NCBI RefSeq assembly: GCF_018476525.1
Contig: NZ_JAHCST010000009.1
Coordinates: 186,001-250,000, forward strand
Direction: 5' to 3'
Length of the DNA stretch: 64,000 bases
DNA from: Acrocarpospora catenulata
Lineage (GTDB): Bacteria > Actinomycetota > Actinomycetes > Streptosporangiales > Streptosporangiaceae
Shown here: in pieces, positions 1-25,364 of the stretch
Numbering within the stretch: the stretch's first letter is position 1
How the letters are laid out: every line of letters starts with the position of its first letter
Program-made: the position numbers and the translations under genes
The notes under the pieces: model-generated
The model's database searches: none
The model's input: the letters and a program-made list of their open reading frames with translations, nothing else
What the model was told of the DNA's origin: nothing

Positions 1-22
1 GCGGAACCTGGCCGCGTTGACC

Positions 23-42
23 TGTCAACAACTCCGTTGATA
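23..42. promoter_or_regulatory. Operator site 1 of the TGTCAAC-N6-GTTGACA family
   Basis: The site reads TGTCAAC, a 6-nt spacer, then GTTGATA, 43 bp before the start of the cyclase-family gene. Five related sites recur at 1704, 1747, 12999, 22723 and 22795, each in front of a catabolic transcription unit. A second inverted repeat, GTTGAC-CT-GTCAAC at 16-29, overlaps the left arm. A dimeric repressor is the natural ligand; the TetR at 17525 is the best local candidate, which is inference. Confidence 0.7.
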
Positions 43-84
43 ATCTCCTTGAGGCAGGTGAGCCGTCGTTCTTGGGAGGTTGCC

Positions 85-957
85 ATGCGGTATCGGTTCG
101 AGGTTGGCGACGAACGCGGAGCCCTCAACCTGGTCGACGAACGGGCGGTCCGGCGCGGGCTGGACAGCGCGAGCCACGGCACGGTCATCCCGCTGGCCCA
201 GCCGATCCGGGCCGGGGCGGCGCCGATCGCCGCCATGCGGACCCCACCGGTGCACTTCATGAGCCGGGACGGAGGCGACTACGCCGCCGGCCTGCCCGAG
301 CGGCCCGGCTTCGGCTTCGCCGACGACTCCATCCTGCTCGCCTGCCATGGCGCCACGCACCTCGACGCCCTCGCGCACGTCTGGCAGGACGGCGTCATGT
401 ACGGCGGGTTCAGCTCGGACGAGGTCACCAGCCGCGGGGCCAAACGCTGCGGCATCGACAAGGCCGGCCCGTTCGTCTGCCGGGGGCTGCTCGTCGACGC
501 GGTGCCCGAGGGCGCCGACGGCCTCGAACCCGGCACCCCGGTGCCCGTCGACGTCCTCCGCGCGGCCCTCGACGGCTGCGACCCCCGCCCCGGCGACGCG
601 CTGCTCGTACGGACCGGCTGGCCGGCGCTGTGGCGCGCGGACCCGTCGATCGGCACCGAGTCCTGGCCGGGGCTGGACGTGGACAGCGTCGAGTGGATCC
701 TGGAGGCGGGCTTCGCGCTGGTCGGCGCCGACACGATCGGCGTGGAGGTCTCCCCGTCGAGCGACCCGTCCTGCGCCTCGCCCCTGCACATCGCGCTGAT
801 CCGCGACCACGGAGTCTACTTCCTCGAACTGCTCGCGCTGGACGCGCTCGCCCAGGCCCTGGCCGCGGCCGGCCGCCGCGACTTCCTCCTCGTCGTCGCC
901 CCGCTGCCGATACACCAAGCGGTCGGCAGCCCGGTGGCGCCCGTGGCGGTACTGTAG
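85..957 (+). CDS. Cyclase family protein (kynurenine formamidase-like metal-dependent hydrolase)
   Basis: The protein has 290 residues from the ATG at 85, which follows a GGGAGG ribosome site; an in-frame ATG at 37 lies inside the operator region and is less likely. The hallmark metal-binding segment HGATHLDALAH sits at about residues 88-98 (H88, H92, D94, H98), as in the HxGTHxDxPxH motif of the cyclase/kynurenine formamidase family. These are cytosolic hydrolases that open amides, lactones or polyketide-like rings. It is first of a two-gene unit with the DUF2889 gene, whose ATG follows this stop codon directly. The upstream operator ties it to the catabolic regulon. Substrate unknown; a ring- or ester-opening step is an inference from context. 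Confidence 0.85.
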   Translation: MRYRFEVGDERGALNLVDERAVRRGLDSASHGTVIPLAQPIRAGAAPIAAMRTPPVHFMSRDGGDYAAGLPERPGFGFADDSILLACHGATHLDALAHVWQDGVMYGGFSSDEVTSRGAKRCGIDKAGPFVCRGLLVDAVPEGADGLEPGTPVPVDVLRAALDGCDPRPGDALLVRTGWPALWRADPSIGTESWPGLDVDSVEWILEAGFALVGADTIGVEVSPSSDPSCASPLHIALIRDHGVYFLELLALDALAQALAAAGRRDFLLVVAPLPIHQAVGSPVAPVAVL

Positions 958-1551
958 ATGGCCGGCCGCTCCTTCGCGCCGCGCGGCGCCCGGCGCGAGA
1001 AGCACCTCGACGTCCTACCCGTCTCCGACACCGAGATGCGGGTCGTCGCCACGCTGCGGGACACCAGCACGGCCATCGACGATCCCGCCGACATCGAGGT
1101 GATCCACGACCTCCGCCTGGATGCGACGATCACGATCCCAGACCTGACGATCCGGGAGATCTCCGCCCACTCCGCACAGCAGCCCTATGACCAGTGCGCC
1201 GTTACGGTCGCGCCGGTCTCCCGGCTGCGCGGCCTCAGCATCCGGCGCGGCTACCGGCGGCAGGTCCTCGAGGTGCTCGGCGGCACTCTGGGGTGCAGCC
1301 ACTTCCTCACCCTCGCCCTCGACCTGTCCGCGGCCAACGTCCTGTCCATCTACCTGCGGATGCGCGCCGAGGTGGACAACACCCCGGGCAACCGCGCCGA
1401 CGGCACCTGGACGCGTGCCGGCATGCGGATCGAGCCCAGGCTGCTGAACGCCTGCGCCGCGCTCGCCGCCGACTCGCCCGTCCAGCGCCGCGCCAAGCGT
1501 CCACAGCCACCGGTCACGAGCACGACCGGGCGCACAGACGACGAGGAGTGA
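958..1551 (+). CDS. DUF2889 domain-containing protein
   Basis: This 197-residue protein starts on the codon immediately after the cyclase stop, so the two are translationally coupled. It matches the DUF2889 family by its overall pattern: an N-terminal half rich in short strands ending in a conserved hydrophobic segment, then GCSHF at about residues 112-116 (usually GCTHL in the family) and a following helical stretch. The C-terminal 30 residues are polar and probably disordered. No catalytic function is established for DUF2889. Strict coupling to a cyclase-family hydrolase and the shared operator suggest a role in the same degradative pathway, but that is inference only. Confidence 0.75.
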   Translation: MAGRSFAPRGARREKHLDVLPVSDTEMRVVATLRDTSTAIDDPADIEVIHDLRLDATITIPDLTIREISAHSAQQPYDQCAVTVAPVSRLRGLSIRRGYRRQVLEVLGGTLGCSHFLTLALDLSAANVLSIYLRMRAEVDNTPGNRADGTWTRAGMRIEPRLLNACAALAADSPVQRRAKRPQPPVTSTTGRTDDEE

Positions 1552-1703: not shown

Positions 1704-1723
1704 TGTCAACGGAGTCGTTGATA
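1704..1723. promoter_or_regulatory. Operator site 2 of the TGTCAAC-N6-GTTGACA family
   Basis: TGTCAAC, spacer GGAGTC, then GTTGATA. It lies in the 294-bp gap between the DUF2889 gene and the ABC importer operon, 123 bp before the substrate-binding protein start. The reverse complement of site 1 shares nearly the whole core with this site, spacer included. The rest of the gap holds no convincing gene. Confidence 0.75.
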
Positions 1724-1746: not shown

Positions 1747-1766
1747 TGTAAACAGGTGCGTTGACA
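1747..1766. promoter_or_regulatory. Operator site 3 (one mismatch) of the same family
   Basis: TGTAAAC, spacer AGGTGC, then GTTGACA: one change from the consensus left arm and a perfect right arm. Its centre is 43 bp from that of site 2, about four helical turns, which would allow two repressor dimers on the same face of the DNA in front of the importer operon. Confidence 0.6.
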
Positions 1767-1845: not shown

Positions 1846-2988
1846 ATGGTCGTCTTATGGCTTCGCCATGCCCGGATAGTGGCCGCCACCGCGGTGATGC
1901 TCGCGGTGGCAGCGTGCGGCGATGACGGCGGGACATCGTCGAACACCTCGGAGAGCACCCTGAAGGTGGGCGTCTGCGTGCCCAACGGTCCTGGCCTTGC
2001 GGGTGTCGGGGAAGGTATAGCGAAGGGCGCCGACCTGGGCGCCCAGAAGGTCTCCGCCGACGGCGGGCCGACGGTCGAGATCGTTCCGATCGACACCGGT
2101 CAGCTGAATGCCGACCTCGCGATGGAGAACACGCAGAAGGCGGTCGAGCAGAACGGCGTGCAGGTCGTCCTGTGCTCCGGCTCGAACGTCGTCTCGGCGA
2201 TCGTTCCCTACCTCGAACGCCGGGGAGTGGCCAGCCTGCTGATCTCCAGCAGCGCCACGCCGTACGCCAACGGCGCCACGCTCGCCCAGCAGATGCAGGC
2301 TCTGCCCGCGACCGAGGCGGCGGCGATGTGGGACTTCCTCGCCTCCGGAGGGGCCGCCGCCGGCCGCGTCGGGGTGCTGTACGTCGACTACGAGTTCGGC
2401 CAGTCGATGGCCACGGCGGCACAGGACGCGGCGCGAAAAGCCGGCCAGGAGATCGTCGCGGTCGAGTCCTACCCACAGGGCAGCACCGACGTGCGGTCTC
2501 AGCTGTCGAAGGTCCTCGCCGCGAACCCGGACGCCATCTTCCTGGCCGCCACCTCCGGAGACGATGCCGGTCTCGCCGTGCGCCAGGGGCGCGAGCTCGG
2601 CTACTCCGGTGTCTTCCTGAGCAACTCCGGCGCGAAGACAGCGGCCCTGTCGTCCCTCCCGACCGCGCAGGACGGCGTCTATGTGTCGGGCAACGACGTG
2701 CCCGCGTCCACGCCCGGGCCGCTGTCAGACCTCGTGGCGAGGACGACCATCCACGCCCTGCTGACCTATGACTCCGTCGTCGAGGCGGGCACCGCCGCGA
2801 GGGCGGTCGGCGGGTCGATCACTGGCCGGGCCCTGATCGACGAGATCCGCCGCGACGGCGGCAGCGCGCCAACCGTCGGAAAGTACACTTTCCGGCCTGA
2901 CGGCAGCACGGACCTGGCATTCGGGGTGTTCCGCGTGTCTACGAGCGGCTTCGAGCAGGTGCACACCTACACGCCGTTGGCCGGCTGA
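1846..2988 (+). CDS. ABC transporter substrate-binding lipoprotein, LIV/branched-chain type (Peripla_BP_6)
   Basis: The 380-residue protein begins with a short basic stretch and a hydrophobic segment ending in a lipobox, VAAC, with the lipid-bearing cysteine at residue 24, followed by a polar Gly/Asp/Ser linker. The rest fits the type I periplasmic-binding fold of LivJ-like receptors. It is first of a five-gene operon with two permeases and two ATPases. In actinobacteria and proteobacteria, LIV-type importers in catabolic clusters often carry aromatic acids instead of amino acids, and this context (ring hydroxylases, acyl-CoA ligase, thiolases) favours that reading. Two operators upstream suggest substrate-induced derepression. 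The ligand itself cannot be told from the sequence. Confidence 0.9.
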   Translation: MVVLWLRHARIVAATAVMLAVAACGDDGGTSSNTSESTLKVGVCVPNGPGLAGVGEGIAKGADLGAQKVSADGGPTVEIVPIDTGQLNADLAMENTQKAVEQNGVQVVLCSGSNVVSAIVPYLERRGVASLLISSSATPYANGATLAQQMQALPATEAAAMWDFLASGGAAAGRVGVLYVDYEFGQSMATAAQDAARKAGQEIVAVESYPQGSTDVRSQLSKVLAANPDAIFLAATSGDDAGLAVRQGRELGYSGVFLSNSGAKTAALSSLPTAQDGVYVSGNDVPASTPGPLSDLVARTTIHALLTYDSVVEAGTAARAVGGSITGRALIDEIRRDGGSAPTVGKYTFRPDGSTDLAFGVFRVSTSGFEQVHTYTPLAG

Positions 2989-2999
2989 GGGAGACTGTC

Positions 3000-3881
3000 G
3001 TGACCGCTGTCCTGTCCCACGGGCTCTCGTCCGGTGCTCTCGCCGCGCTGTTCACGGTCGGGATCGCGCTGGCCTGGCGGGTCGTCGGCCTCATCGACTT
3101 CCATCTGCCGGCCGTCTTCGTCGTGGCCGGCTATGGGTCGGTGTCGTTCCAGGACCTCGGGCTGCCGCTGTTGCCCTCAGCCGTGCTTGGAGTCGGCGCG
3201 GCAGCGGGCTACGCCGCGCTGCTGTTCCTGCTGGCGCACCGGCCGCTGTTGCGCCGCGGAGCGAATCCGGACGCCATCCTCATCGCGACGCTCGGACTGC
3301 TCGCGATGGCGCAGGCGACGCTCGGATGGGTCTACGGGCCCGTCCGCCGCTATCCCTTCTCAGGGGTGCAGACCACGGTGGAGGTCGTCGGCTTCCGTTT
3401 CAGCACGGCCGACCTGGCCGCCATCGGACTGGCGATCCTGCTGATCCCGGCGCTGCTCACGTTCTTGCGGCGGACCTCGCTCGGCCTCTCCCTGGAGGCA
3501 CTCTCCGAGAACCGGCAGCTCGCTCTCGTGACTGGAGTGAACGAACCCGCGGCACAGGTACTGACCTACGTCCTGGTGGCGGTCTTCGCGGGTGCGGCCG
3601 GAGTTGTGTCCGGTGTCGTCGCGGGCGTCGATCCGGCTATCGGCGTCGGGCCGTTCCTGGTGGCCTTCGGCGCGGTGCTGGTCGGTGGCCACCAGTCGCT
3701 GGTGCGTCCGGTCGCGGCCGCCGTGCTGCTCCAGGTCGTCGTCGCGTTGATCAGCTGGCAACTGCCCGCCCAATGGGATCGGACGGTGCTGTTCACCGCG
3801 ATCGTCGTCACCTTACTCGCCCGTCGCATCGTGGTGCGCCAGGTCCAGCGCCGGCGGGTCATGCAGCTGGCGGCATCATGA
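3000..3881 (+). CDS. LIV-type ABC transporter permease (LivH-like)
   Basis: A 293-residue membrane protein starting at GTG 3000, 11 nt after the binding-protein stop. It shows about eight hydrophobic segments, and the segment around residues 165-180 (LGLSLEALSENRQLALVTGV) is the EAA-like cytoplasmic loop typical of LivH permeases, which contacts the ATPase. A glycine- and valine-rich stretch with VAGVDPAIGVGPFL follows, also typical of LivH. It overlaps the next permease by 4 nt, so the pair is translationally coupled and should form the transmembrane heterodimer of the importer. Confidence 0.88.
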   Translation: MTAVLSHGLSSGALAALFTVGIALAWRVVGLIDFHLPAVFVVAGYGSVSFQDLGLPLLPSAVLGVGAAAGYAALLFLLAHRPLLRRGANPDAILIATLGLLAMAQATLGWVYGPVRRYPFSGVQTTVEVVGFRFSTADLAAIGLAILLIPALLTFLRRTSLGLSLEALSENRQLALVTGVNEPAAQVLTYVLVAVFAGAAGVVSGVVAGVDPAIGVGPFLVAFGAVLVGGHQSLVRPVAAAVLLQVVVALISWQLPAQWDRTVLFTAIVVTLLARRIVVRQVQRRRVMQLAAS

Positions 3882-4825
3882 CCTACCTGCTGGCGGTTCT
3901 GCTCACGATCTGCATCTGGACGGTCGTCGCGCAGGGACTGGTGCTCGTCTTCGGGCACGGCGGCGTGTTCTCGGTGGCCCAGGTCGCCTGCATGGGCGTC
4001 GGCGGATACACCACGGCGCTCCTCGCGTCCGTCTACGAGAGCCCAGGACTCGGGTTTCTCATGGCGCCGGTCGTCGCCGCGGCGGTCGGGGCGGTGATAG
4101 GGCTTGCCGCTGTCGCGGGCGCGGGCGAGAGCGCTCTGCTTGTCACCTTCGCAGCGCAGTTCGTGTTCGAGGATGTGGTGACCAACCTCCGGGGGCTCAC
4201 GGGAGGTGCCAACGGCATCTCCGCGATACCTCCGCTCACCGTCAGCGGCGTGGCGCTGCTCGACCCACCCGAACTGCTCGCTCTGACGGTTCCGGTCCTG
4301 GCTGTGGTCGCGCTCGGGCTGTGGGCGCTGACGGCGAGCCCGTGGGGACGCCGGCTCCGGGCCCTGCGGGACAACCGCCATGCCGCGCCGGCCTACGGCA
4401 TCCCACGGACGGCGCCACTCGTCCAGGCGTTCGCCGTCTCGGCCGGCGTCGCGGGGATCGGCGGCGCACTCTATGTCGCCACCGCCGGATTCGTGTCGCC
4501 CCACTCCTTCGGCCTCGACCAGCTGGTGATGGTGCTCACCATCGTTGTGCTCGGTGGCCAGACGCGGCTCGCCGGTGCCGCCGTGGGCGCGGTCATCGTC
4601 ATCCTCCTGCAGCGGCTCCCCGCGTACGTGTCGTTCGGCGGGTCCGTGGACCAGCATCTGCCCCAGTTCCTCTTCGGTCTGCTCCTGGTGCTCGCGATGC
4701 TCCTGCTGCCCAACGGTCTGCTCCGGGAGAGAGCCTCAGTGCGGATCAAGCCCCGCAGCGACCGGACAGAACGACGCCCGCAGCTCACGACCTGGTTGAG
4801 GAGCACCTTGAGGAGGGCACGATGA
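3878..4825 (+). CDS. LIV-type ABC transporter permease (LivM-like)
   Basis: A 315-residue membrane protein; the start is the ATG at 3878, which overlaps the LivH-like stop in an ATGA junction. An in-frame ATG about 550 bp upstream exists only because the frame stays open over the preceding gene. The segment SPWGRRLRALRDNRHAAPAYGI near residues 155-175 is the LivM cytoplasmic loop, and GFVSPHSFGLDQLVMVLTIVVLGG is a conserved LivM stretch. A basic C-terminal tail of about 30 residues ends in the next gene's start codon. It pairs with the previous permease in the importer. Confidence 0.88.
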   Translation: MTYLLAVLLTICIWTVVAQGLVLVFGHGGVFSVAQVACMGVGGYTTALLASVYESPGLGFLMAPVVAAAVGAVIGLAAVAGAGESALLVTFAAQFVFEDVVTNLRGLTGGANGISAIPPLTVSGVALLDPPELLALTVPVLAVVALGLWALTASPWGRRLRALRDNRHAAPAYGIPRTAPLVQAFAVSAGVAGIGGALYVATAGFVSPHSFGLDQLVMVLTIVVLGGQTRLAGAAVGAVIVILLQRLPAYVSFGGSVDQHLPQFLFGLLLVLAMLLLPNGLLRERASVRIKPRSDRTERRPQLTTWLRSTLRRAR

Positions 4826-5619
4826 CCACCGCCGCGTGCGGGGGCACGCACGACGTGCTGACGGTGGAGGACGTCTCGAAGAGCTTCGGCGGGGTCCAGG
4901 CGCTCGACGGCTGCACGTTCTCGATGCGAGGCGGTGGCGTAACAGGGCTGATCGGCCCGAACGGCGCCGGGAAGAGCACCATCGTCAATATCGTGACCGG
5001 GTTCGTCAAGGCGGACCGCGGCACGGTGAGGCTGGGCGGGCACGGCCTCCACTCCCTCTCTCCGCTGGAGATCGCCCGGATCGGAGTCGGGCGAACCTTC
5101 CAAGACCTGCGGCTCTTCGACGGGATGACTGTCCTGGAGAACCTGCTCGTTGCCCGCGAGGCGCGTGACGCGCGGGAGGAGAGCACCTCCGTCGCGCGAC
5201 GCGGCAAACGGCGATCGGCGCGGAGGCCGAATCTCGACGCCGCCACGGAGGTACTCGATCGGCTCGGCCTCGGCGACGGCGCCGATCGGTGGGTCCGAGA
5301 GCTCTCGTACGCGGAGCGCAAGCTCGTCTCGCTGGCGCGGGTCCTGATGACCGAACCGCGGGTCGTGTTCCTCGATGAGCCCAGCTCAGGAGTCGACCTT
5401 AACGCCCTTGATCACTTCGGCAACGAGATCCGGATCCTGCGCGAGCGGGGCGCGATGGTCGGGGTGATCGAACACAATGTGGAGGTAATCCGGATGTGGT
5501 GCGACGACGTCGTGTTCATGACACGCGGCCAGGTGCTCCGGCAGGGCAGCCCCGACGAGGTCTTCGCGGACTCCACGGTGCTGTCGGAGTACGTCGGCGG
5601 AGGTGCGGCGCATGCCTGA
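4822..5619 (+). CDS. LIV-type ABC transporter ATP-binding protein (LivG-like)
   Basis: A 265-residue cytosolic ATPase starting at ATG 4822 in an ATGA overlap with the LivM-like gene. The Walker A motif GPNGAGKS lies at about residues 47-54 and the Walker B with switch glutamate is VVFLDEPSSG. The signature motif is LSYAERK in place of LSGGQ, a variation usual in LivG proteins, and the C-terminal segment with VIEHNVEVI resembles the LivG H-loop. A short Arg/Ser/Glu-rich insertion (about residues 112-135) is not usual. It overlaps the next ATPase gene by 8 nt. Confidence 0.9.
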   Translation: MTTAACGGTHDVLTVEDVSKSFGGVQALDGCTFSMRGGGVTGLIGPNGAGKSTIVNIVTGFVKADRGTVRLGGHGLHSLSPLEIARIGVGRTFQDLRLFDGMTVLENLLVAREARDAREESTSVARRGKRRSARRPNLDAATEVLDRLGLGDGADRWVRELSYAERKLVSLARVLMTEPRVVFLDEPSSGVDLNALDHFGNEIRILRERGAMVGVIEHNVEVIRMWCDDVVFMTRGQVLRQGSPDEVFADSTVLSEYVGGGAAHA

Positions 5620-6316
5620 CGCGCTCGTCGTGAGGGGGGTGACCGCTGGATACGGTTCCTCCCGCGTCCTCCGCGATGTCGACCTCACCGTCCGGAGTGG
5701 TGCGATCACCTGCCTCCTCGGCGCGAACGGCGCCGGCAAGACGACGCTCGTGCGGGTGGTGTCCGGTTTGATCACCCCGGTCGCCGGAGGCGTCACCGTC
5801 GACGGGGCATCGCTGCTCGGCACGCCGCCGTGGCATCGGGTCCGGGCCGGGCTCGGCACCTCACTGCAGGAGAACATCGTCTTCCCGGGTGTCTCCGTCC
5901 GGCAGAACCTCCTGCTCGCGGGCCGCAGCCTGCAGCGCAGGGCAAGGAACGAGCGGGCAGCGGAGCTGCTCGACCTGTTCCCGGCGCTGGCCGGCCGGGT
6001 CGACGTGCGAGCAGGCGCGCTCAGCGGCGGCGAGCAACGGATGCTCAGCGTGGCGATGGCGCTGACGCCCCGCCCCACAGTCCTGATGCTCGACGAGCCG
6101 TCGATCGGGTTGTCACCCGTCATGGTGGAAACGATCTTCGATCGCCTCCGGCACGTCCGCGACGCGACGGGCACCTCGATCCTGCTGGCGGAGCAGAACG
6201 CCATGGCCGCCCTCGCGATCAGCGAGGAGGCCTACGTCCTGCGGTCCGGATCCGTCGTGGCCCACCGCCCGGCCGCGGAACTGCGAACGAGCGAGCAGGT
6301 CATGGCCCTGTTGTGA
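5612..6316 (+). CDS. LIV-type ABC transporter ATP-binding protein (LivF-like)
   Basis: A 234-residue ATPase. The ATG at 5612 has a GGAGG eight bases upstream and is preferred to the GTG at 5603. Walker A is GANGAGKT, the signature is LSGGEQRMLS, and Walker B is VLMLDEPSIGLSP, the last a LivF hallmark; the H-loop histidine is absent because LivF proteins carry LLAEQNA at that place. It closes the five-gene importer operon. The 82-bp gap to the convergent DoxX gene shows no clear hairpin terminator. Confidence 0.9.
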   Translation: MPDALVVRGVTAGYGSSRVLRDVDLTVRSGAITCLLGANGAGKTTLVRVVSGLITPVAGGVTVDGASLLGTPPWHRVRAGLGTSLQENIVFPGVSVRQNLLLAGRSLQRRARNERAAELLDLFPALAGRVDVRAGALSGGEQRMLSVAMALTPRPTVLMLDEPSIGLSPVMVETIFDRLRHVRDATGTSILLAEQNAMAALAISEEAYVLRSGSVVAHRPAAELRTSEQVMALL

Positions 6317-6889: not shown

Positions 6890-8884
6890 TCACAAGATGC
6901 CTCTACCAGCGAGGTGTCCCTCACGGATCGCGGTCTGCAGATCTCGGGGCGAAAGGGCATCGCCTACCCGGCTCACTGCCTTGCCGGCTGCGCGAAGTTC
7001 AACCGAAAGGTCATCGCACGCGGTCCGGTGCGTGAGTAGCACGACCGTATCCGCGGCCACTTCCGTTTCACCGTGGTCGACCGAGTGCACGACGCAGGAG
7101 CCTGGCGAGATACGTGTCAGCAGAGCATTCGGTCGAACGTCGAAACGCCGCCCAGATTCAGCGAAGCGCTTCCGCGCTGGAACAGTTCGCAACGTTCGAT
7201 CGGCTACCGGAGCAAAGGACGAGAATCGCGTGACGACCGTGACGTCAAGTCCCCGGACCAGGAGATACTCGACGACCGCCACCGACTCGTAGTGACCAAC
7301 GTCGTCATACACGACGGCCGTCCGTCCGAGTTCGCGCTTGTCGTCACCGAGAAGTTCCACCGAAGAGATTACGTGCGATTCTTCAACCCCCGCCACACGT
7401 TCACCCGGAGCCGAGATAAGAACGCCCGACTTATCGGGAACGCTCCCAGTGGCAACGATCACGAAGTCGGCCTCCTGACGCAGTACTCCCGCCGCGTCGA
7501 TGGGGCTCGACTTCCGCACATCCACGCCCAGCCGGCCCAGTTCGGCCTCCTGCCAGGTGACTACATCGAAGATTCCACCGAGATTCGGCGCACGCCGTGC
7601 GAAATTCAGCGCGCCCCCGAGACGAGGGGCGGCTTCGTAAAGAACGACTTCATGGCCACGTAGTGCCGCAGTTCGTGCGGCTTCCAGGCCGGCGGGCCCG
7701 CCACCGATCACGACGACCTTCCGGGGATTCGTCGTACGGCCGATCTGGTCTTCGGACAGCACATCGTCGAATCCGGCGATCGGATTCACCACACACCCGG
7801 TTCGCGTGTCCGTACCTGAGATGACCCCAAGGCAGCCCTGATTACATCCGATACACGGCCTGATTTCTCCGCGACGGCCGGTTCTCGTCTTCTCAACGAT
7901 ATCGGGAGCGGCAAGATGCGCCCGCACCATGCTAACGATGTCCGCAGCGCCCGACCGCAGGACCTCCTCGACTTCATCCAGGGCACGAAACCGGCCCGTG
8001 ACCAGGCGTGGAACCCTGGTGACCGAAGCGGTGATCTGCCCGCTCGATGGCAACTGGTAACCTGCCTTCGTCTCCATTCCGCCGATCGCGATATGCGGAC
8101 CGAAGAAGTCGCCCTGCGAAACATTCAGATAGTCGATCAGGCCATGATCGACGAGACTGTTCGCCACCTCGCTCAGTTCAGGCTCGCGAACTGCCCCCTT
8201 TCCCGCACCGGCACCCACCCGGACGCCGACTGCCATATCGGGTCCGACAGCATCGCGAACGGCGCGCAGCACCTCGACCAGAAAGCGCGCCCTGTTCTCG
8301 AGGGAGCCACCGTACTCATCATCCCGAGTGTTCGTCATCGGCGACAGGAACTGCTGAATTAGATAGCTGTGAGCGGCAGCTATCTCTACGCCGTCCAGAC
8401 CACCGGCGACAACGCGTCGGGCCGCGTCGGCATATGCCGAGACCAACTCGGCGATGTCCTCCCGCTCGAGGGGAACGGGAGGCACACCCAAGATCGGGCT
8501 CGTGACGGCAGAAACGCCTCTTGGCGGACGCCCGTCACCAGGCCCAAAATGATGGCCGCCATGCCATAGTTGTTGAAATACCCGGGTGCCATATGGCCGA
8601 ACTGCCGCCATAAGACGCTGGTAGCCTTCGATGATCCTGTCGTCGTAAGCCGCCAGGCAGGCAGGATTGTTGCTCACCGTACTCGACGGATGTACCGTCG
8701 CCGCCTCGAGAATGATCAGGCCGACACCTCCCTTCGCCCTTTCGGTGTGATAGGCGACGAGAGCATCTGTTATCACGGGCCCGTTGGCAAATCGCGTCTC
8801 GTGCGCCGCAATTGCGACACGATTCGGAATAATCGTCTTGCGGATCGCGATCGGCTCGAAAGTGCGCTCCAGTTCCGAAGACAT
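6890..8884 (-). CDS. OYE-type NADH:flavin oxidoreductase with Fe-S cluster and FAD/NAD domain (2,4-dienoyl-CoA reductase-like)
   Basis: The protein has 664 residues from ATG 8884, which follows TTGGAGAG; an upstream in-frame ATG at 8941 lacks such a site. The N-terminal half is an FMN-binding TIM barrel of the Old Yellow Enzyme class with AHSYLIQQFLSP (about 171-182). Four cysteines at about 344, 347, 351 and 364 form the CxxCxxxC-x12-C pattern of the 4Fe-4S site seen in 2,4-dienoyl-CoA reductase and trimethylamine dehydrogenase. A Rossmann motif VVIGGGPAGLE follows at about 391. It would reduce an activated C=C bond of an enone or dienoyl intermediate. The DNA here is clearly poorer in G+C than its surroundings, suggesting a different origin. 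Confidence 0.88.
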   Translation of the reverse strand: MSSELERTFEPIAIRKTIIPNRVAIAAHETRFANGPVITDALVAYHTERAKGGVGLIILEAATVHPSSTVSNNPACLAAYDDRIIEGYQRLMAAVRPYGTRVFQQLWHGGHHFGPGDGRPPRGVSAVTSPILGVPPVPLEREDIAELVSAYADAARRVVAGGLDGVEIAAAHSYLIQQFLSPMTNTRDDEYGGSLENRARFLVEVLRAVRDAVGPDMAVGVRVGAGAGKGAVREPELSEVANSLVDHGLIDYLNVSQGDFFGPHIAIGGMETKAGYQLPSSGQITASVTRVPRLVTGRFRALDEVEEVLRSGAADIVSMVRAHLAAPDIVEKTRTGRRGEIRPCIGCNQGCLGVISGTDTRTGCVVNPIAGFDDVLSEDQIGRTTNPRKVVVIGGGPAGLEAARTAALRGHEVVLYEAAPRLGGALNFARRAPNLGGIFDVVTWQEAELGRLGVDVRKSSPIDAAGVLRQEADFVIVATGSVPDKSGVLISAPGERVAGVEESHVISSVELLGDDKRELGRTAVVYDDVGHYESVAVVEYLLVRGLDVTVVTRFSSFAPVADRTLRTVPARKRFAESGRRFDVRPNALLTRISPGSCVVHSVDHGETEVAADTVVLLTHRTACDDLSVELRAAGKAVSRVGDALSPRDLQTAIREGHLAGRGIL

Positions 8885-8971
8885 TCGACTCTCCAAGTCA
8901 TCGTTTTCATGCGACAGGACTGCAGAAGCCGGGTAAATCATGTGAATTCGTGCCGCGAGCTGCGATGGCTG

Positions 8972-9370
8972 TCACGAATCGTTCGGAGATGCACCTGACA
9001 GCTCCCGCACCGGCGACGGATCCATGAAGATCCGATACTCTGCCAGATATTCACCCGAGAAGCGCATCAGCGTCATCGCCGGTAGTCTGACTCGACCACC
9101 CGACTCCCCCGTATAAGTAACCTCCACGAGGGTGGCGATGGAATCGTCTCGTTCCCATGTCTCGATGAGCTCGTGCGAGACCCCGGAAATACCCTGCAGA
9201 TACTCCCCCATCCATCGTTCGATGGCGGCCCTACCTGTCACAGGCGAGTTGTTGGCCATCTGAAATACGGTTTCCCCATCGAAGAATCCCAGGAGGCGGA
9301 CCGGGTCCGCGTCACCCGCGTGGAGCACGTCCGCGGCGCGGACAACCGCCGGTCTGGTCGAACTCGACAT
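8972..9370 (-). CDS. SnoaL-like / NTF2-fold protein
   Basis: A 132-residue protein starting at ATG 9370 after AAAGGAAA. The pattern of an N-terminal helix, a central FFDGETVFQMANNSPVTGRAAIERWM segment and four strands ending with a Y-R-I-F-MD stretch matches the SnoaL/NTF2-like fold, which includes cyclases, isomerases, epoxide hydrolases and many binding proteins. It lies between the FAD hydroxylase and the OYE-type reductase in one minus-strand series and probably acts on an intermediate of the same pathway. Like the reductase it is in DNA of lower G+C. No specific reaction can be assigned. Confidence 0.7.
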   Translation of the reverse strand: MSSSTRPAVVRAADVLHAGDADPVRLLGFFDGETVFQMANNSPVTGRAAIERWMGEYLQGISGVSHELIETWERDDSIATLVEVTYTGESGGRVRLPAMTLMRFSGEYLAEYRIFMDPSPVRELSGASPNDS

Positions 9371-17485: not shown

Positions 17486-17524
17486 GCGGGCGGCACCGGG
17501 TGGTCCTCGCGGCTATCGTCGACC

Positions 17525-18269: not shown

Positions 18270-19445
18270 TCAGGCCGACAGCACCGTGCAGGTCGAGAAC
18301 TGGTTCGCGCCCCCCTGCCCGGTCGCCACGGCGACCCTCGCGCCCGGGACCTGCCGCTCACCGGCGGAGCCCATGACCTGCTGGGCGCATTCCGCCAGCC
18401 TGATGAGTGCCGTGGCGCCGACCGGGTTGGCGGCCTGGGGCCCACCGGACGGGTTGATCACCGTCTCGGTCCCCCACCGGCCGAAACCGGAGCGGACGAG
18501 GTCCGGGCCGTCAGGTGCGTCGCACAGCCGCAGCGGGCCGTAGGCCATGGTCTCCGCGTGCGTGAAGGGGGCGTGGATCTCGACGACCTGCGCCTGCCGG
18601 GCATCCGAGATGCCGGCCTGCGCGTAGGCCCGCTCCGCCGACCGACTCAGGGTGATCATGTCCTCCAGGTTGCCGATCGGGCGGTGCACCCGGTCCCCCA
18701 TGTTGTAGGTGTCGCTCACCGAGGCCCTGCCCCGGACATGGGCCAGGGGGCGGCCAGAGCCCTCGAACCGCTCGGACCGGACGATCACGACGGCGCACAC
18801 CCCCTCCGACACCGGGCAGGCGTCCAGCTGCGTGACCGGCCACGCGATCATGCGCGACCGCAGCACGTCCTCCGCGCCGTACGGTGTGCGGATCTGCGCG
18901 AGCGGGTTGCGCGAGGCGTTGTCGAAGTTGCGCTCGGCGACCTGGGCCCAGACCTCCCGGGCGTAGCCCCAGCGCGCCATCATCCGGGTGGCGCGCAGCG
19001 CGCCCATCGAGATCGTCGACAGGCCGGTGTCCCGCTCGTAGATCGGGTCGAAGATCGAGTTGAAGACCGCGGGCACGCTGTTCGCCTGCGCCATCCGCTC
19101 GACCCCGACGACGACCGCCACGTCGCCGCGCCCGGCCTCGAGGAGGTCCATCGCGGCGTAGGCCGCTGCGATGCCGGTGGTGCCGCCCGTGTTGATCCGC
19201 ATGCTCCAGCGGCCGATCGCGCAGGCCGCGGGGAGGAAGCGCTTGTCCGGACAGTTCTCTCCCGCGAGGCCGTCCGGCGCGAAACCACCGACGACGATGT
19301 CGACGTCCCGGGCGGTGAGGCCGGCGTCGGCGAGCGCCTCCCGCACGGCCTGGCCCACCAGCTCGGGGGTGGATCCCTCATGCCGCCGCCGATAGGGCGT
19401 CTGCCCCACACCGGCGACCGCGAGCCCGTGGCCGGTCCTAGGCAT
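18270..19445 (-). CDS. Thiolase-fold protein without active-site cysteine (Ltp2-like CoA-dependent retro-aldolase)
   Basis: A 391-residue thiolase-superfamily protein from ATG 19445. The nucleophile position reads INTGGTTG where true thiolases have a cysteine, the HPxGATG motif is NPVGATA, and ELHDCF is EIHAPF. These losses are typical of Ltp2-type proteins, which act with a DUF35 partner (ChsH2) as aldolases that remove a short fragment from a beta-hydroxyacyl-CoA side chain in steroid catabolism. The DUF35 gene lies directly upstream with an 8-nt overlap, giving the same gene pair. It closes the P450-led minus-strand operon. A non-catalytic role cannot be excluded. Confidence 0.82.
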   Translation of the reverse strand: MPRTGHGLAVAGVGQTPYRRRHEGSTPELVGQAVREALADAGLTARDVDIVVGGFAPDGLAGENCPDKRFLPAACAIGRWSMRINTGGTTGIAAAYAAMDLLEAGRGDVAVVVGVERMAQANSVPAVFNSIFDPIYERDTGLSTISMGALRATRMMARWGYAREVWAQVAERNFDNASRNPLAQIRTPYGAEDVLRSRMIAWPVTQLDACPVSEGVCAVVIVRSERFEGSGRPLAHVRGRASVSDTYNMGDRVHRPIGNLEDMITLSRSAERAYAQAGISDARQAQVVEIHAPFTHAETMAYGPLRLCDAPDGPDLVRSGFGRWGTETVINPSGGPQAANPVGATALIRLAECAQQVMGSAGERQVPGARVAVATGQGGANQFSTCTVLSA

Positions 19446-19968
19446 CGGCGGCCACCAGCTCGAAGGCGAAGTCGGTGATGCGGCCCTCGCACTTGTCGGA
19501 GAAGACGACCCGCACCCGCGGCTGGGTCAGCAGCAACGCCCCCGCCTCGTCGAAGTCGTGCAGGTCGATCCCGTGGACCGCGTTCAGCAGGGCGGTGGAA
19601 GCTCCGTCGAGAGTGACGTAGCCGACCACGGTCGGCGGTTCCGGAAGCCCGGGGAACGATGTCGTCAGAATCGTGAAGCTGTCCAGGGTGCCTTCGGTAC
19701 CGACCTCTCGCCACTCGTCGATCTCGACGTAGCAGGCGTCGCAGAACCCGCGGGCCGGCACGAGCACCCGGTCGCACGTGGGGCAGTGCGTACCCATGAT
19801 CCGCTGGTTGAGCCGGAGCTCGTTGAAGAACCGGCTGGCCGAGGCACCTGCGAAGTAGGTGTACCCGAAGTCCCAGTGGCCCTGGATCGTCACCGGCTCC
19901 GCGACGGGGTCGGTCGTGCTCCCGTCCGCGGCCGCGTCGCCGTCCGGGGGAACCGGCGTGCTGCTCAT
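19438..19968 (-). CDS. DUF35 OB-fold / Zn-ribbon protein (ChsH2-type aldolase partner)
   Basis: A 176-residue protein; the ATG at 19968, six bases after GAGGAG, is preferred to the TTG one codon upstream. Four cysteines near 62, 65, 76 and 79 form the CxxC-x10-CxxC zinc ribbon, followed by the OB-fold. The first 30 residues are acidic and probably disordered. It overlaps the start of the Ltp2-like gene by 8 nt. In known systems such DUF35 chains bind the thiolase-fold partner and are required for its aldolase activity, so the two are expected to form one complex. Confidence 0.85.
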   Translation of the reverse strand: MSSTPVPPDGDAAADGSTTDPVAEPVTIQGHWDFGYTYFAGASASRFFNELRLNQRIMGTHCPTCDRVLVPARGFCDACYVEIDEWREVGTEGTLDSFTILTTSFPGLPEPPTVVGYVTLDGASTALLNAVHGIDLHDFDEAGALLLTQPRVRVVFSDKCEGRITDFAFELVAADA

Positions 19969-20005
19969 CAACTGCTCCTCGTGCTACTCGTCGGTGGGTT
20001 CCGGA

Positions 20006-21109
20006 TCACCTGCAGGACCGCCCGTGCGTCGTGTCGTGGCCTTCGGCACGCCCGAGTACCACGGCGGCCTGGGTCTGAGCTGCGACGACGGAGGACCCCG
20101 AGGCGAGGGCGAGGGCTCCGTCACCTTCGCGGACCCGCTGCACCGCCCGGGCGATCCGGGTCAGGCCCATCGCGGGGGCGCAGTAGCCGACCGACCGTGC
20201 TCCGGCCGGATCGAGCCGCGGGTCGAGTGCGAGCGCCTCCATCCCGCGCCCGGACCCGGTCGCCCCCACCGCCTCGAGCGCGAGCGCCTCGTCGAACATC
20301 GTCAAGGCGTCGATCTCCAGCACGTCGACCTCGTCGATGGAACGCCTGGCCTCGCGCAGGGCCTGCTCCCCAGCCGACCGCAGGGCGGGCAGGCCCGTCA
20401 GGTCACGGTCGCCGAGCTCGAACGGCTCGGTGCTCATCCCGGCCCCGAGCACCTCGACTGGCCCGGGCTCGCTGCTGAGCACCACCGCGGACACCACGTC
20501 TCCCCAGATCGGCAGCTCGGTGTCCCGCAACGGCCAGGCCGCAGCCGGGATCCGGCCCGCCGCGCCTTCGACCTCACCGCGGCGAGTCGCCGCCGCCGCA
20601 CGGTGCTCGGCGTACTCCGGGTGCTCGATGAGCGCGCGGGAGGCCCGTAGCCCGCTGACCCCGATCTCGGTCATGCCCAGCGGGCGCGTGGTGAACGGGT
20701 CGAACAGCGCGCGCGCGATGTCGTCGGCCGGACCCTCGCTCGCCCGGCCCCACGCGGCCACCAGACAGGTCCGGACCGAACCCGAGCGGATGCGGGCGTC
20801 GCCGAGGACGAACGCGGCGGCTCCGTCATCGCCCAGCCTGGTCTCGTCCTTCAGGAACGCCGCCGCTGCCGGCGCCGTGATCATGTTCGTGAGGGAGCGG
20901 CCGTCGACGAGGTCGTGCGCGGCGAGTACGACGGCCTCGAGGTCGCCGACCGGCATCCTCGCGTCGTCCAAGGCGCGGCGGACGCACCGGAAGATCAGGT
21001 CGGTGAGACTCGCCGACCCGTCCGCCCAGGAAGAGCTCACCGCCGTCCCGTGCACGTAGACGCGCTGCACATCGACCTCCTCGTCGTCGTTCGGGCGGGT
21101 CGCTCTCAT
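20006..21109 (-). CDS. Degenerate thiolase-like protein
   Basis: A 367-residue protein from ATG 21109, overlapping the ferredoxin stop in an ATGA junction. The thiolase fold can be followed from VRRALDDARMPVGDLEAVVLA to the C-terminal VGYCAPAMGLTRIARAVQRV, but both catalytic signatures are gone: the cysteine region reads RLGDDGAAAF and the HPxGATG region reads GYCAPAMG. It is therefore unlikely to be a thiolase in the chemical sense. It lies next to the DUF35/Ltp2-like pair and may form a heteromer with one of these proteins. A role as a structural or regulatory subunit is inferred. Confidence 0.75.
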   Translation of the reverse strand: MRATRPNDDEEVDVQRVYVHGTAVSSSWADGSASLTDLIFRCVRRALDDARMPVGDLEAVVLAAHDLVDGRSLTNMITAPAAAAFLKDETRLGDDGAAAFVLGDARIRSGSVRTCLVAAWGRASEGPADDIARALFDPFTTRPLGMTEIGVSGLRASRALIEHPEYAEHRAAAATRRGEVEGAAGRIPAAAWPLRDTELPIWGDVVSAVVLSSEPGPVEVLGAGMSTEPFELGDRDLTGLPALRSAGEQALREARRSIDEVDVLEIDALTMFDEALALEAVGATGSGRGMEALALDPRLDPAGARSVGYCAPAMGLTRIARAVQRVREGDGALALASGSSVVAAQTQAAVVLGRAEGHDTTHGRSCR

Positions 21110-21324
21110 CCGTCGTCATTCACGTCGCCGACCAGAGAGATCGCCTCCATCGGGCAGGCGTAGGCGGCCTCACGCAGCTCGCTCTCGGTCCACTCCCCGG
21201 ATGGCAGGAAGAACGCCTGCCCCTCGTCGTCGAAGTCGAACGCACCCGGGGCGTGCTGCACGCACATGCCGACCCCGGCGCACCTGCCGTGGTCGACCTC
21301 GGCCCCCTCAAGCCTGGCTGTCAT
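21106..21324 (-). CDS. 3Fe-4S ferredoxin, P450 redox partner
   Basis: A 72-residue acidic ferredoxin from ATG 21324, which overlaps the P450 stop codon by 4 nt. The cluster ligands are visible in CAGVGMC and ACPMEAI; the C-x5-C spacing with a residue other than cysteine in the middle is typical of single 3Fe-4S ferredoxins that serve bacterial P450s. Coupling to the P450 gene supports electron transfer to that enzyme. No ferredoxin reductase gene lies nearby, so a reductase encoded elsewhere is needed. Confidence 0.9.
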   Translation of the reverse strand: MTARLEGAEVDHGRCAGVGMCVQHAPGAFDFDDEGQAFFLPSGEWTESELREAAYACPMEAISLVGDVNDDG

Positions 21325-22565
21325 GACTCGTAAAAGGTGACGTGCAGCTGGGTGAGGCTGCGGGAGACCACCGTCGGCGCGTAATGCAGCTCCTGCTCGT
21401 GGATCGTGTAGCGGGGGAACGCCTGCGACAGGCCGCGAAACGCCTCCTCCGCCTCCAGCCGGGCGAGCGGGGCCCCGAGGCAGGTGTGGATCCCCTGGCC
21501 GAACGCGGTGTGCTTATTCGGCCTGCGCGCGATGTCGAGCCGTTCCGGGTCGGTGAAACCCGCGGGATCGCGGTTGGCGGCGTGCTGCACGAGCAGCACC
21601 CGGTCGCCGACCTCGATCCGCTGGCCGGCCAACTCCAGCGGCTCCTTCGCCCAGCGGGCCTGGGCACGAATCGGCCCGTCGAAGCGCAACACCTCGTCCA
21701 CGGCGGAGCGCGCCAGCGTGGGGTCCGCGCGCAGCCGTGCCCACTGGTCGGGGAACTCGTCGAACGCGACCATGCCATTGGCCAGCAGGTTCATCGTCGT
21801 CTCGTGGCCGGCGAACACCATCAAGATCGCGTTTGCGACCACCTCGTCGTCGGTGAACGCGTCGCCGCCGTCCGCGGCCTGCACCATGCCCGAGATCAGG
21901 TCCTCCCGGGGATCCCGCCGCCGCTCGGCGATGATCGGCTTGAGGAACTCGGCGAGATCGTGCATCGCCTGCTCGCCCTTACGCATCCGGTCGGTGTCGT
22001 TGCCCCGGACGAAGATCACCGCCCCCAGGTCCTCGGACCACTTCCGTACTGACTCCCGGGCCTCGGCGGGAACGCCCAGGTACTCCGCGATGACCACCAC
22101 CGGGAGGGTGAACGCGAAGCGGGCGAAGAAGTCGACCTCCTGCTGTCCCCGGATCGGCTCGATGAGCGAGCTGACGAGCTCCTGGATCCGCGGCCGGAGC
22201 ACCTCGACGCTGCGCGGGGTGAAGGCCTTGTTGACCAGCTTGCGCATCCGGGTGTGGTAGGGCGGATCCTTCCACACGAAGATCTTCGACAGCAGTCTGA
22301 AGAGCTGCTGGTACTGAGACGACGCCTCGCTGAGGTCCTCGCCGAACGGACCGGAGAAGCGGTCCGAGGACAGCTTCGTGTGGCTCCGGAAGCCCTCGAC
22401 GACCTCCGGGTATCCGGTGACGATCCAGCCGTTCCACCGCTTGTTCCAGTAGACGGAGCGGGTCTCCCGGAGCCGCCGGTAGTACTGGAACGGCCGGTCG
22501 ATCGCCTCGGGCGACAGCAGGTCGTCGAGATCGGTTGGGTTGTCCGGCAGGACTGTCTCGCTCAC
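21321..22565 (-). CDS. Cytochrome P450
   Basis: A 414-residue P450 from GTG 22565 with GGAGG upstream. The oxygen-binding I-helix motif AGHETT is at about 252-257, the ExxR motif is EVLR near 291, and the heme loop FGQGIHTCLG carries the thiolate cysteine C362. Length and motifs are those of a soluble bacterial class I enzyme. It leads the operon ferredoxin - degenerate thiolase - DUF35 - Ltp2-like, so it probably hydroxylates a side chain before aldol cleavage, as in sterol side-chain catabolism. Two TGTCAAC operators lie between it and the divergent TPP-enzyme gene. Confidence 0.92.
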   Translation of the reverse strand: MSETVLPDNPTDLDDLLSPEAIDRPFQYYRRLRETRSVYWNKRWNGWIVTGYPEVVEGFRSHTKLSSDRFSGPFGEDLSEASSQYQQLFRLLSKIFVWKDPPYHTRMRKLVNKAFTPRSVEVLRPRIQELVSSLIEPIRGQQEVDFFARFAFTLPVVVIAEYLGVPAEARESVRKWSEDLGAVIFVRGNDTDRMRKGEQAMHDLAEFLKPIIAERRRDPREDLISGMVQAADGGDAFTDDEVVANAILMVFAGHETTMNLLANGMVAFDEFPDQWARLRADPTLARSAVDEVLRFDGPIRAQARWAKEPLELAGQRIEVGDRVLLVQHAANRDPAGFTDPERLDIARRPNKHTAFGQGIHTCLGAPLARLEAEEAFRGLSQAFPRYTIHEQELHYAPTVVSRSLTQLHVTFYES

Positions 22566-22714: not shown

Positions 22715-22722
22715 GCCGAGGG

Positions 22723-22742
22723 TGTCAACATAGTCGTTGACA
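22723..22742. promoter_or_regulatory. Operator site 5, perfect TGTCAAC-N6-GTTGACA
   Basis: TGTCAAC, spacer ATAGTC, then GTTGACA: both 7-bp arms are perfect. It lies 158 bp from the P450 start and about 170 bp from the divergent TPP-enzyme start. Confidence 0.78.
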
Positions 22743-22794: not shown

Positions 22795-22814
22795 TGTCAA
22801 CGGATATGTTGACA
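22795..22814. promoter_or_regulatory. Operator site 6, perfect TGTCAAC-N6-GTTGACA
   Basis: TGTCAAC, spacer GGATAT, then GTTGACA with perfect arms. Its centre is 72 bp from site 5, so the divergent promoter carries one site per direction, and it lies 95 bp before the TPP-enzyme start. Confidence 0.78.
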
Positions 22815-22908
22815 CAACCGTTTAAGGACTCTCTAATGGAGCGCACAGGCGTGGCGGGGCGTTTCGACGCGATGAGCCACCCCGGACAACAGCGCGAAGG
22901 AGCTCGGC

Positions 22909-25299
22909 ATGAGGGTGGTGGACCAGGCCCCCCAAGGCACCCACCCGACGCCTGCCTCCCTGAAAGGATTCCCTGTGACCGCCGACACCAGCACGGAACA
23001 CGCCATCGGGCGCCTGGAGACGCTGCGCACGATCGAGCAACGAGTGCTGTGGCTGTCGACCGCGATCGTCGACCATGCGAACCGGGTGCGGCCCAACCCG
23101 ACCGGGCTGAAGGTCGGCGGGCACCAGGCTTCGTCAGCGTCGATGACCACGATCATGACCGCGCTGTGGTTCGAGCAACTACGGGCCGGCGACCGGGTCT
23201 CGGTCAAACCGCATGCCTCGCCGGTGCTGCACGCGATCAACTACGTGCTCGGCGACCTGGACCGGTCCTACCTGACGACGTTGCGGTCCTTCGGCGGGTT
23301 GCAGTCCTACCCCTCGCGGTCGAAGGACCCGGATCCGGTCGACTACTCCACCGGATCGGTCGGGATCGGCGCCACGGCGCCGATCTGGGGTGCGCTCGCG
23401 CGCCGCTACGTCTCCACCCTGGGTGACCAGGCCGGGGCAGGACGCCAGTATTCGTTGGTCGGGGACGCCGAGCTGGACGAGGGCGCGGTGTGGGAGGCGA
23501 TCTGCGACCCGATGGTCGCCGAGCTCGGCGAGGTCGTGTGGATCGTCGATTTGAACCGGCAGTCCCTGGACCGGGTCGTGCCCGACATCGGCACCCCGCG
23601 ATTGCAGGGCATGTTCGACGCCGCAGGCTGGCAGGTCCTCACCGTCAAGTACGGCCGCCTGCTGGAGGAGCTGTTCACCCGGCCCGGCGGGGAGCACCTG
23701 CGCCGCCGCATCGACCAGATGCCCAATGCCGAGTACCAGCGGCTGCTCCGCTGTACCCTCGCCCAGCTGCGCGAACGGCTGCCCGGCACCGGTGACGACG
23801 CCGGCGTGCCGGCCTCCCTCGTCGCTTCCCTGGACGACGCCACGCTGCACGCCGCGGTCCGCAACCTCGGCGGGCACGACCTGCGCGCGGTCGGTGACGC
23901 CTTCGCCGCGATCGACGACACCCGGCCCACCGTGATCTTCGCGTACACGGTCAAGGGCTTCGGGCTCCCCTCCGAAGGACACCCGCAGAATCACTCCTCG
24001 CTGCTGTCCGAGGAGCAGATGCGCAAGCTCGCCGCCCGGTGCGGGACCTCGCTGGAGAACCCGTGGGAGCGCTTCGCGGAGGGCACGCAGGCAGCGCGGC
24101 TGTGTACGGTCACGGCGCAGCGGCTGCGCCGTGACCCGATCGACCCTGCCGCGGCGCCCACGCTACCGGTCGACATCGGCCGCACCCCTTCCGGGAAGGC
24201 CACCACCCAGGCCGCGCTCGGCCGGGCATTGCTCGACCTGACTCGCTCCGCCCCCGACGCCGCCCGCCGGATCGTCACGCTGTGCCCGGACGTGTCGTCG
24301 TCGACGAACCTGGGCGGCTGGGTGAACAAGGTCGGCGTCTGGTCACCCGATGAGCGCCGGGACTGGTTCGAGGACGACCCCGAGACGATCCTGCACTGGC
24401 GGGAACGCCCGACCGGGCAGCACATCGAGCTCGGCATCGCCGAGGGCAACCTCGTCGGCGCGCTCGGCGAGCTCGGCGCCACCTGGTCCCGCTGGGGACA
24501 GCCGCTGCTGCCGATCGGGGTGCTCTACGACCCGTTCGTCGAACGCGCCTTGGAACCCTGGTCGTTCGGGATCTACGCGGGCGGGCAGTCGATCCTGGTC
24601 GGCACCCCCTCCGGAGTCACCCTGGCCCCCGAGGGCGGGGCACACCAGTCGATCACCACCCCGTCCGTCGGGCTGGAACAACCCGGCTGCATCACCTACG
24701 AACCCGCGTTCGCCCTCGACACCGAATGGACCCTGCTCGCTTCCCTCGCCCGCCTCGGGCGCCCCGACGGCAGCTCGGCCTACCTACGGCTGTCCACCCG
24801 CCCGGTCGAGCAGTCACTCGCCGCAGTCCCGGCCGACCCGGCCGCCCGGGAACGACGCCGCCGCCAGGTCGTCGCGGGTGCCTACCCCCTCCGCCGGGCC
24901 GACGCCGACACCCCCGCGCTGACGATCGCCGCGATGGGCGCGACCATGCCCGAAGCCCTCGCCGCCGCCGAACGACTCGAATCGCTCGGCATCCCCGTCG
25001 ACGTCGTCTGCGTGACGAGCCCCGGCCTGCTCTTCGACGCCGTCCAGGCCCGCGCCGGCCGCGGTGCCGCAGAGACGTGGATCCTCGACGCCGCCTTCCC
25101 CGCCCGCCGGGCCGCACCGCTCGTCACCCTCCTCGACGGGCACCCACACACCCTCGCCTTCCTCGCCGGGGTCAACCAGATCCGCGCCACCCACCTCGGC
25201 GTCACCCGGTTCGGCCAGTCCGGGGACCTGGAATCGGTGTACCGTTACCACGGCCTCGACACCGACAGCGTCGTCGCCGCAGGTCTCGACCTCCTCTGA
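22909..25299 (+). CDS. TPP-dependent 2-oxoacid dehydrogenase E1, homodimeric pyruvate dehydrogenase (AceE)-like
   Basis: A 796-residue protein from ATG 22909, preceded by GAAGGAG; a GTG at 22975 is an alternative start. The order of parts is that of AceE: an N-terminal TPP-binding domain with GDAELDEG and VDLNRQS (the GDG-like/N motif), a central pyrimidine-binding domain with HIELGIAEGNLVGALGELG, and a C-terminal transketolase-like domain. It is shorter than the usual 880-900 residues, mostly in the middle. No E2 or E3 gene is adjacent. In this regulon it may handle a 2-oxoacid released by aldol or FAH cleavage, either as an E1 using the cell's E2/E3 or as a free carboligase or decarboxylase. 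Confidence 0.85.
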   Translation: MRVVDQAPQGTHPTPASLKGFPVTADTSTEHAIGRLETLRTIEQRVLWLSTAIVDHANRVRPNPTGLKVGGHQASSASMTTIMTALWFEQLRAGDRVSVKPHASPVLHAINYVLGDLDRSYLTTLRSFGGLQSYPSRSKDPDPVDYSTGSVGIGATAPIWGALARRYVSTLGDQAGAGRQYSLVGDAELDEGAVWEAICDPMVAELGEVVWIVDLNRQSLDRVVPDIGTPRLQGMFDAAGWQVLTVKYGRLLEELFTRPGGEHLRRRIDQMPNAEYQRLLRCTLAQLRERLPGTGDDAGVPASLVASLDDATLHAAVRNLGGHDLRAVGDAFAAIDDTRPTVIFAYTVKGFGLPSEGHPQNHSSLLSEEQMRKLAARCGTSLENPWERFAEGTQAARLCTVTAQRLRRDPIDPAAAPTLPVDIGRTPSGKATTQAALGRALLDLTRSAPDAARRIVTLCPDVSSSTNLGGWVNKVGVWSPDERRDWFEDDPETILHWRERPTGQHIELGIAEGNLVGALGELGATWSRWGQPLLPIGVLYDPFVERALEPWSFGIYAGGQSILVGTPSGVTLAPEGGAHQSITTPSVGLEQPGCITYEPAFALDTEWTLLASLARLGRPDGSSAYLRLSTRPVEQSLAAVPADPAARERRRRQVVAGAYPLRRADADTPALTIAAMGATMPEALAAAERLESLGIPVDVVCVTSPGLLFDAVQARAGRGAAETWILDAAFPARRAAPLVTLLDGHPHTLAFLAGVNQIRATHLGVTRFGQSGDLESVYRYHGLDTDSVVAAGLDLL

Positions 25300-25364
25300 A
25301 CCAACCTCTCCGACCCTGCTCGGACGCCCCGCACCGAAGAGTACGTGCTCGCCGTACGGGCGAT

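Follow-up and report, generated by a model that had tools for sequence, protein, structure and literature searches.

The window analysed here is a 64-kb stretch (64,000 nucleotides) of the genome of Acrocarpospora catenulata (contig NZ_JAHCST010000009.1, positions 186,001 to 250,000, or C171:186001-250000 in our numbering), and it carries part of a catabolic locus in which one palindrome recurs ahead of the genes. Our results suggest that this palindrome, TGTCAAC-R-N4-Y-GTTGACA, is very probably the operator of a TetR protein encoded in the same locus to the left of the window (hereafter the upstream TetR), an autoregulated repressor that would act by occluding the promoter -35 element, would probably be released by an acyl-coenzyme A (acyl-CoA), and would control about nine transcription units together. 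The sites, their confinement to the locus, the way they accompany relatives of the upstream TetR but not three other TetR sets, and their -35/-10 geometry are computed results. For the locus of about 32 kb, this predicts which protein regulates it, through which operator, and which units are controlled together. An earlier note on the window had proposed one operator and one regulon, probably under the TetR at 17525. The regulon half of that reading is supported by genome-wide confinement of the sites and by comparative genomics, while the regulator half is replaced; this corrects an easy mistake, as the TetR visible in the window is not likely to be the regulator.

A scan of the window for TGTCAAC-N6-GTTGACA with up to three mismatches returned exactly six matches and none further. 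Shuffled versions of the window (n=100) gave a mean of 1.03 matches and a maximum of 5, so that six was never reached. The matches at 23, 1704, 1747, 12999, 22723 and 22795 carry 1, 1, 1, 2, 0 and 0 mismatches, respectively, and all lie outside called genes (genes were called with our own simple coding-score script and domains assigned by Pfam). These are the six sites that the earlier note had listed, and its coordinates, their gene-free placement and the perfect arms of the last two were all borne out. The sites in the window are as follows.

23..42: operator TGTCAACAACTCCGTTGATA, preceding the cyclase/DUF2889 unit, 43 bp ahead of its start at 85 (motif scan and gene calls)
1704..1723: operator TGTCAACGGAGTCGTTGATA, preceding the ATP-binding cassette (ABC) importer (motif scan; kept in A. 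macrocephala)
1747..1766: operator TGTAAACAGGTGCGTTGACA, preceding the ABC importer; its right arm is a putative -35 box, followed 17 bp beyond by TATCGT (motif scan; kept in A. macrocephala)
12999..13018: operator AATCAACGACACTGTTGACA, between the divergent VOC unit (minus strand) and the OB-fold/thiolase unit (plus strand); right arm with TACCGT 18 bp beyond (kept in A. macrocephala)
22723..22742: perfect operator; minus-strand arm with TACAGT 18 bp beyond, toward the P450 unit (present in A. macrocephala with one change)
22795..22814: perfect operator; plus-strand arm with TCTAAT 17 bp beyond, toward the thiamine pyrophosphate (TPP) enzyme (kept in A. macrocephala)

Upstream of the site at 22723, window positions 22680-22713 hold a 17-base sequence duplicated in tandem (cgactgtaggcagtgcc twice); in the aligned promoter of A. 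macrocephala it occurs once.

In the whole-genome motif scan that the earlier note had proposed (10.29 Mb, 181 contigs), all eight sites with at most one mismatch fell inside a single 32-kb stretch, C171:177115-208814. Thirteen further sites carry two mismatches; two of these are in the locus and the other 11 all lack the core TCAAC-N6-GTTGA. The exact core occurs ten times in the genome, nine of them in the locus and the tenth ahead of a MerR-like gene on contig C175, and a reversed-pattern control of the core gave four genome matches. The binomial probability of nine of ten cores falling in this stretch is about 2e-22, a figure that is only rough because the stretch was delimited by the sites themselves. 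Four of the sites, at C171:177115, 180380, 181431 and 183149, lie to the left of the window, and one of them precedes a second tetR gene. The earlier claim that no site occurs outside the locus was therefore right as to confinement, but the locus extends about 9 kb farther to the left than had been described, with four more sites. In place of five transcription units on 25 kb, we count ten sites in eight intergenic regions of a locus of about 32 kb, none overlapping a called gene, which would serve about nine units.

The second tetR gene encodes the upstream TetR. It lies at C171:180472-181143 (L017:10472-11143), inside the catabolic locus and 5.5 to 4.9 kb to the left of the window, with an operator site 73 bp ahead of its start. 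The protein has the domains PF00440 (TetR_N, E 3.2e-13) and PF17932 (TetR_C_24, E 2.9e-24), and falls below the cut-offs of the NCBIfam equivalogs for FadR (53.1 against 200 bits) and KstR (21.7 against 280 bits). It has no close paralog, as a search of its own genome gave a best score of 354 bits and a next of 95. At E 1e-30, relatives were found in 12 of 149 related genomes (its own included), at 17 loci. Within 1.5 kb of these loci the exact core is present in 14/17 and the motif with at most two mismatches in 12/17. The recognition helix of this motif-linked family reads DRA[ST]xYYY in an alignment of 14 of the 17 loci plus the own TetR (itself L020) and the TetR at 17525, with L026 and L027 left out.

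The association holds across a wider set. Of 136 relatives of the upstream TetR, from Actinobacteria and Proteobacteria, it takes in the best 80. This set represents 79 distinct loci, some of them near-duplicates, and 1.39 Mb of DNA with flanks of up to 10 kb. The motif or its core is present in 69 of the 79 loci, and a site with at most one mismatch in 48; in all there are 18 perfect, 59 one-mismatch and 112 two-mismatch sites, whereas none of 12 permuted palindromes gave more than one match at one mismatch or better. When the flanks were cut to 1.5 kb, the motif was found in 32/79 and the core in 33/79 loci, and thus the sites of distant relatives often lie at other promoters of the neighbourhood. 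An open palindrome search (all five-base half-sites, spacers 0-14) over 73 loci, with six loci whose helix reads DRAA set apart, ranked TCAAC-N6-GTTGA first of 7,894 types, with 217 occurrences in 66 loci against 0.43 expected; the second and third ranks (GTCAA with spacer 8, CAACA with spacer 4) go to this motif read in shifted register. Only 22 of the 217 cores fall within open reading frames, though 70% of the DNA is coding. The alignment of the wider relatives took in 38 of the 79 loci. The six DRAA loci have neither motif nor core, against 69 of the other 73 with one or the other. As these six resemble one another, they may be one lineage and their loss of the operator a single event; a palindrome search for a replacement in them gave nothing convincing, mostly CG-rich repeats. 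Away from the locus, pairs of TCAAC-N6-GTTGA exactly 46 bp apart occur in three genomes of the genus (G002:C162:1743, G003:C109:4107 and G004:C5:164960), and are perhaps the paired operator of another regulator.

The earlier note's alternative, that the sites of the locus are regulated by the TetR at 17525, is very unlikely. This gene, which we call at 17558-18232, does sit in the locus, and in A. macrocephala its product is kept at 92% identity on a contig that carries seven sites and lacks the upstream tetR. The comparison made above for the upstream TetR gives the opposite result for this protein: neither the motif (at most two mismatches) nor the core occurs within 1.5 kb of the loci of the 17525 TetR and its four detected relatives (0/5). 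Its recognition-helix region reads VAAGLLFHH, unlike the DRA[ST]xYYY of the motif-linked family. At E 1e-20, its relatives turned up in no more than 3 genomes of 149 and 3 of 396 (its own in both counts), far fewer than have the motif. Its assignment as regulator of these sites is thus very probably wrong. Because its gene is the last of the unit that starts behind the site at 12999, it is more likely a target of the regulon than its regulator. A second perfect inverted repeat, GTTGAGTG-N15-CACTCAAC, lies at window positions 12921-12951 between the VOC and OB-fold units. A. macrocephala has it as well; elsewhere the two genomes lack it, save for one two-mismatch match in A. macrocephala. It could be a candidate operator of the 17525 TetR; in the other four loci of this TetR a general inverted-repeat search, the only kind made, showed nothing common to them. 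Two other sets of regulators were rejected. For the TetR at 25858, the exact core lies within 1.5 kb in 0 of 20 loci (20 of its 46 matches had loci), and of the 14 other relatives of the upstream TetR found in its own genome, none of the 11 scanned has the core within 1.5 kb.

Conservation of the gene cluster also follows the upstream TetR. Relatives of the locus enzymes lie beside an upstream-type TetR on contigs of G092, G015, G105, G104 and A. macrocephala (G003, contig C30), in a synteny comparison that counted matches of at least 38% identity on parts of contigs, except for contig C83 of A. macrocephala, which was compared whole. All nine genomes with a near full-length cyclase of at least 54% identity also have an upstream-type TetR; of the twelve genomes with such a TetR, nine have such a cyclase and G021 has a partial one. 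Among the sites with at most one mismatch in six genomes that have a relative, 24 of 26 lie within 23 kb of that relative (19) or in the C83 locus (5), and two genomes of the genus without a relative at the threshold have one such site and none. The aligned promoters of A. macrocephala keep the operator sites.

The position of the operator relative to the promoter suggests how the upstream TetR would act. The geometry was analysed for 184 of the 189 sites of the 79 wider loci and for the 322 of 368 arms that read TTGAC or TTGAT. Past the TTGAC[AT] arm, the hexamer TANNNT occurs 32 times at 17 bp and 23 times at 18 bp, and 0 to 5 times at each other spacing from 8 to 39; the 55 occurrences at 17-18 bp compare with a mean of 6.4 and a maximum of 16 in 500 shuffles of the downstream bases. 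Because -10-like hexamers peak at this distance, the arm TTGACA is often the -35 box itself. Six of the ten sites of the locus fit loosely, namely C171:177115, 183149, 187747, 198999 and 208795 on the plus strand and 208723 on the minus strand, although TATCAA (at 183149) and TCTAAT (at 208795) are not strict TANNNT; in the pair between the P450 unit and the TPP enzyme, each site faces one gene. We infer from these data that a dimer of the upstream TetR binds TGTCAAC-R-N4-Y-GTTGACA, whose outer arm half would often double as the -35 element, so that the bound protein would exclude RNA polymerase and repress the other units as well as its own gene. An intermediate of the pathway, most likely an acyl-CoA thioester, would free the repressor and induce the roughly nine units together, including the one that carries the 17525 TetR. 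The effector class is suggested by a structure model of L061, a relative of 72% identity (mean pLDDT 85.5), whose nearest structures are 3DCF, PfmR and KstR2, with DarR, AibR and FadR further down; an acyl-CoA is expected because the entry titles of AibR and FadR name CoA thioester complexes.

Several observations weigh against this model. Four of the ten sites of the locus lack a good -10 hexamer facing a gene, and the strict TANNNT geometry is present in only 55 of the 184 sites of relatives. Ten of the 79 wider loci have neither motif nor core (two of these are on contigs of 3.5-4.1 kb), and the G105 cluster, whose TetR is a 50% relative, had no sites better than three mismatches in the 20 kb read. 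Contig C83 of A. macrocephala holds a partial locus of 89-99% identity with seven sites (at most two mismatches) and no upstream tetR; at the identity threshold used, the whole contig gave no match for the upstream tetR, the dehydrogenases, the hydratase, the monooxygenase, the cyclase, the DUF2889 gene or the thiolase/OB set of the P450 unit. Our explanation is that the C83 sites are controlled in trans from the second cluster on C30, which has relatives of most of the genes missing from C83, core sites of its own, and an intact TetR of 45% identity with the helix DRASLYYYV; there is a small chance that the 17525-type TetR controls them instead. About half of the locus genes are gone from C83 while the sites stay, and at L040:2008-4865 the monooxygenase gene is gone and a perfect operator remains directly ahead of the short-chain dehydrogenase/reductase (SDR) gene.

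Some TetR proteins activate transcription, and the upstream TetR might bind the sites in order to activate, or to activate and repress. The four sites of the locus without a clear gene-facing -35 box would agree with this. The 17-18 bp geometry over 184 sites places the protein on the -35 box, and therefore favours occlusion; we give activation only a slim chance. A broader but tentative reading is also open, whose probability we put somewhat below even. The DRA[ST]xYYY subfamily may have held on to a single operator in both Actinobacteria and Proteobacteria even as the pathways it controls changed; the reason would be that an arm of the operator is also the -35 box. An operator and its promoter could then pass from phylum to phylum as one unit that works under the common housekeeping sigma factor, with a single S/T-to-A change in the helix marking a lineage that left the operator. 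The assignment of a predicted operator to this subfamily, whose many host organisms include Novosphingobium, Sphingobium, Pseudomonas, Nocardioides and relatives of Frankia, would aid the finding of regulons and the building of sensors.

The gene content of the locus looks like that of a CoA-dependent breakdown of some compound. To the left of the window lie, in order, two acyl-CoA dehydrogenases and an enoyl-CoA hydratase, the upstream tetR, an AMP-ligase, and a flavin monooxygenase with an SDR. Within the window the units, from gene calls and Pfam, are as follows.

85..1551, plus strand: cyclase (85-957) and DUF2889 protein (958-1551)
1846..6316, plus strand: ABC importer with binding protein, two permeases and two ATPases (for the second of each, permease and ATPase, the sole evidence is the gene call and synteny)
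6890..12822, minus strand: VOC protein, FAA hydrolase, aromatic hydroxylase and flavin mononucleotide (FMN) oxidoreductase, divergent from the unit at 13329
13329..18232, plus strand: OB-fold (ChsH2-type) protein, thiolase, AMP-ligase and TetR (17558-18232)
18270..22565, minus strand: P450, ferredoxin, thiolase-like protein, OB-fold protein and thiolase
22909..25299, plus strand: TPP-dependent enzyme, like transketolase or the E1 component of pyruvate dehydrogenase

Control of the minus-strand VOC unit by the site at 12999 is possible from its position. The locus holds two separate sets of a ChsH2-type OB-fold protein and a thiolase, at window positions 13329-15811 and 18270-21109; such sets are found in retro-aldol steps of steroid side-chain breakdown. 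Comparison with plasmid relatives and with two annotated plasmid regions did not name the pathway of the locus.

Among known regulators, KstR2 of Mycobacterium tuberculosis is a local repressor, acting on a CoA-dependent catabolic locus through the operator AnCAAGnnCTTGnT. It is among the nearest proteins by sequence profile and fold (PDB 4W1U/4W97), but is only 24% identical to the modelled relative L061, and its operator is unlike the motif described here. AibR and FadR have a similar fold, and the titles of their entries show complexes with isovaleryl-CoA and stearoyl-CoA, respectively, although among the matches listed they are only 21-22% identical. PfmR (TTHB023) of Thermus thermophilus (PDB 3VPR) shares the TetR fold and is among the top sequence and structure matches. 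Its targets include genes of acyl metabolism as well as the promoter of its own gene, and its published 16-mer consensus, (a/c)Y(g/t)A(A/C)YGryCR(g/t)T(c/a)R(g/t), is unlike TGTCAAC-R-N4-Y-GTTGACA when the two are compared by eye (PMC7022988).

The closest likeness in the operator itself is to SufR, whose operator is given as CAAC-N6-GTTG in work on Streptomyces avermitilis (PMC11995493) and cyanobacteria (PMC8593673). That sequence is present without change in five of the six sites in the window, and the sites could in principle be those of some unrelated regulator that shares this core, SufR being the foremost candidate. By the same reports, SufR is an ArsR/DeoR-type iron-sulphur protein of the suf operon and not a TetR, and the likeness, drawn from the operator only, would be convergent. 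The suf region of this genome (8 kb, C101:83001-91000) has no CAAC-N6-GTTG, and the sites described here have longer arms and occur in loci with relatives of the upstream TetR (69/79), which leaves such a regulator a barely credible alternative.

A local TetR regulon of catabolic genes would be of a known kind, whereas the predicted operator had no earlier description linking it to a TetR among the literature matches listed; a match to the motif in work on the dsz TetR was a primer (PMC6534649). EdcR of Caenibius tardaugens is likewise a TetR repressor; its target is a catabolic cluster in which a single palindrome recurs at several promoters, that of its own gene included, but it has a TetR_C_11 domain in place of the TetR_C_24 of the upstream TetR, and its palindrome, TnnCnnTACnAnTnGTAnnGnnA, lies over the -10 box and not the -35 (PMC8700777).

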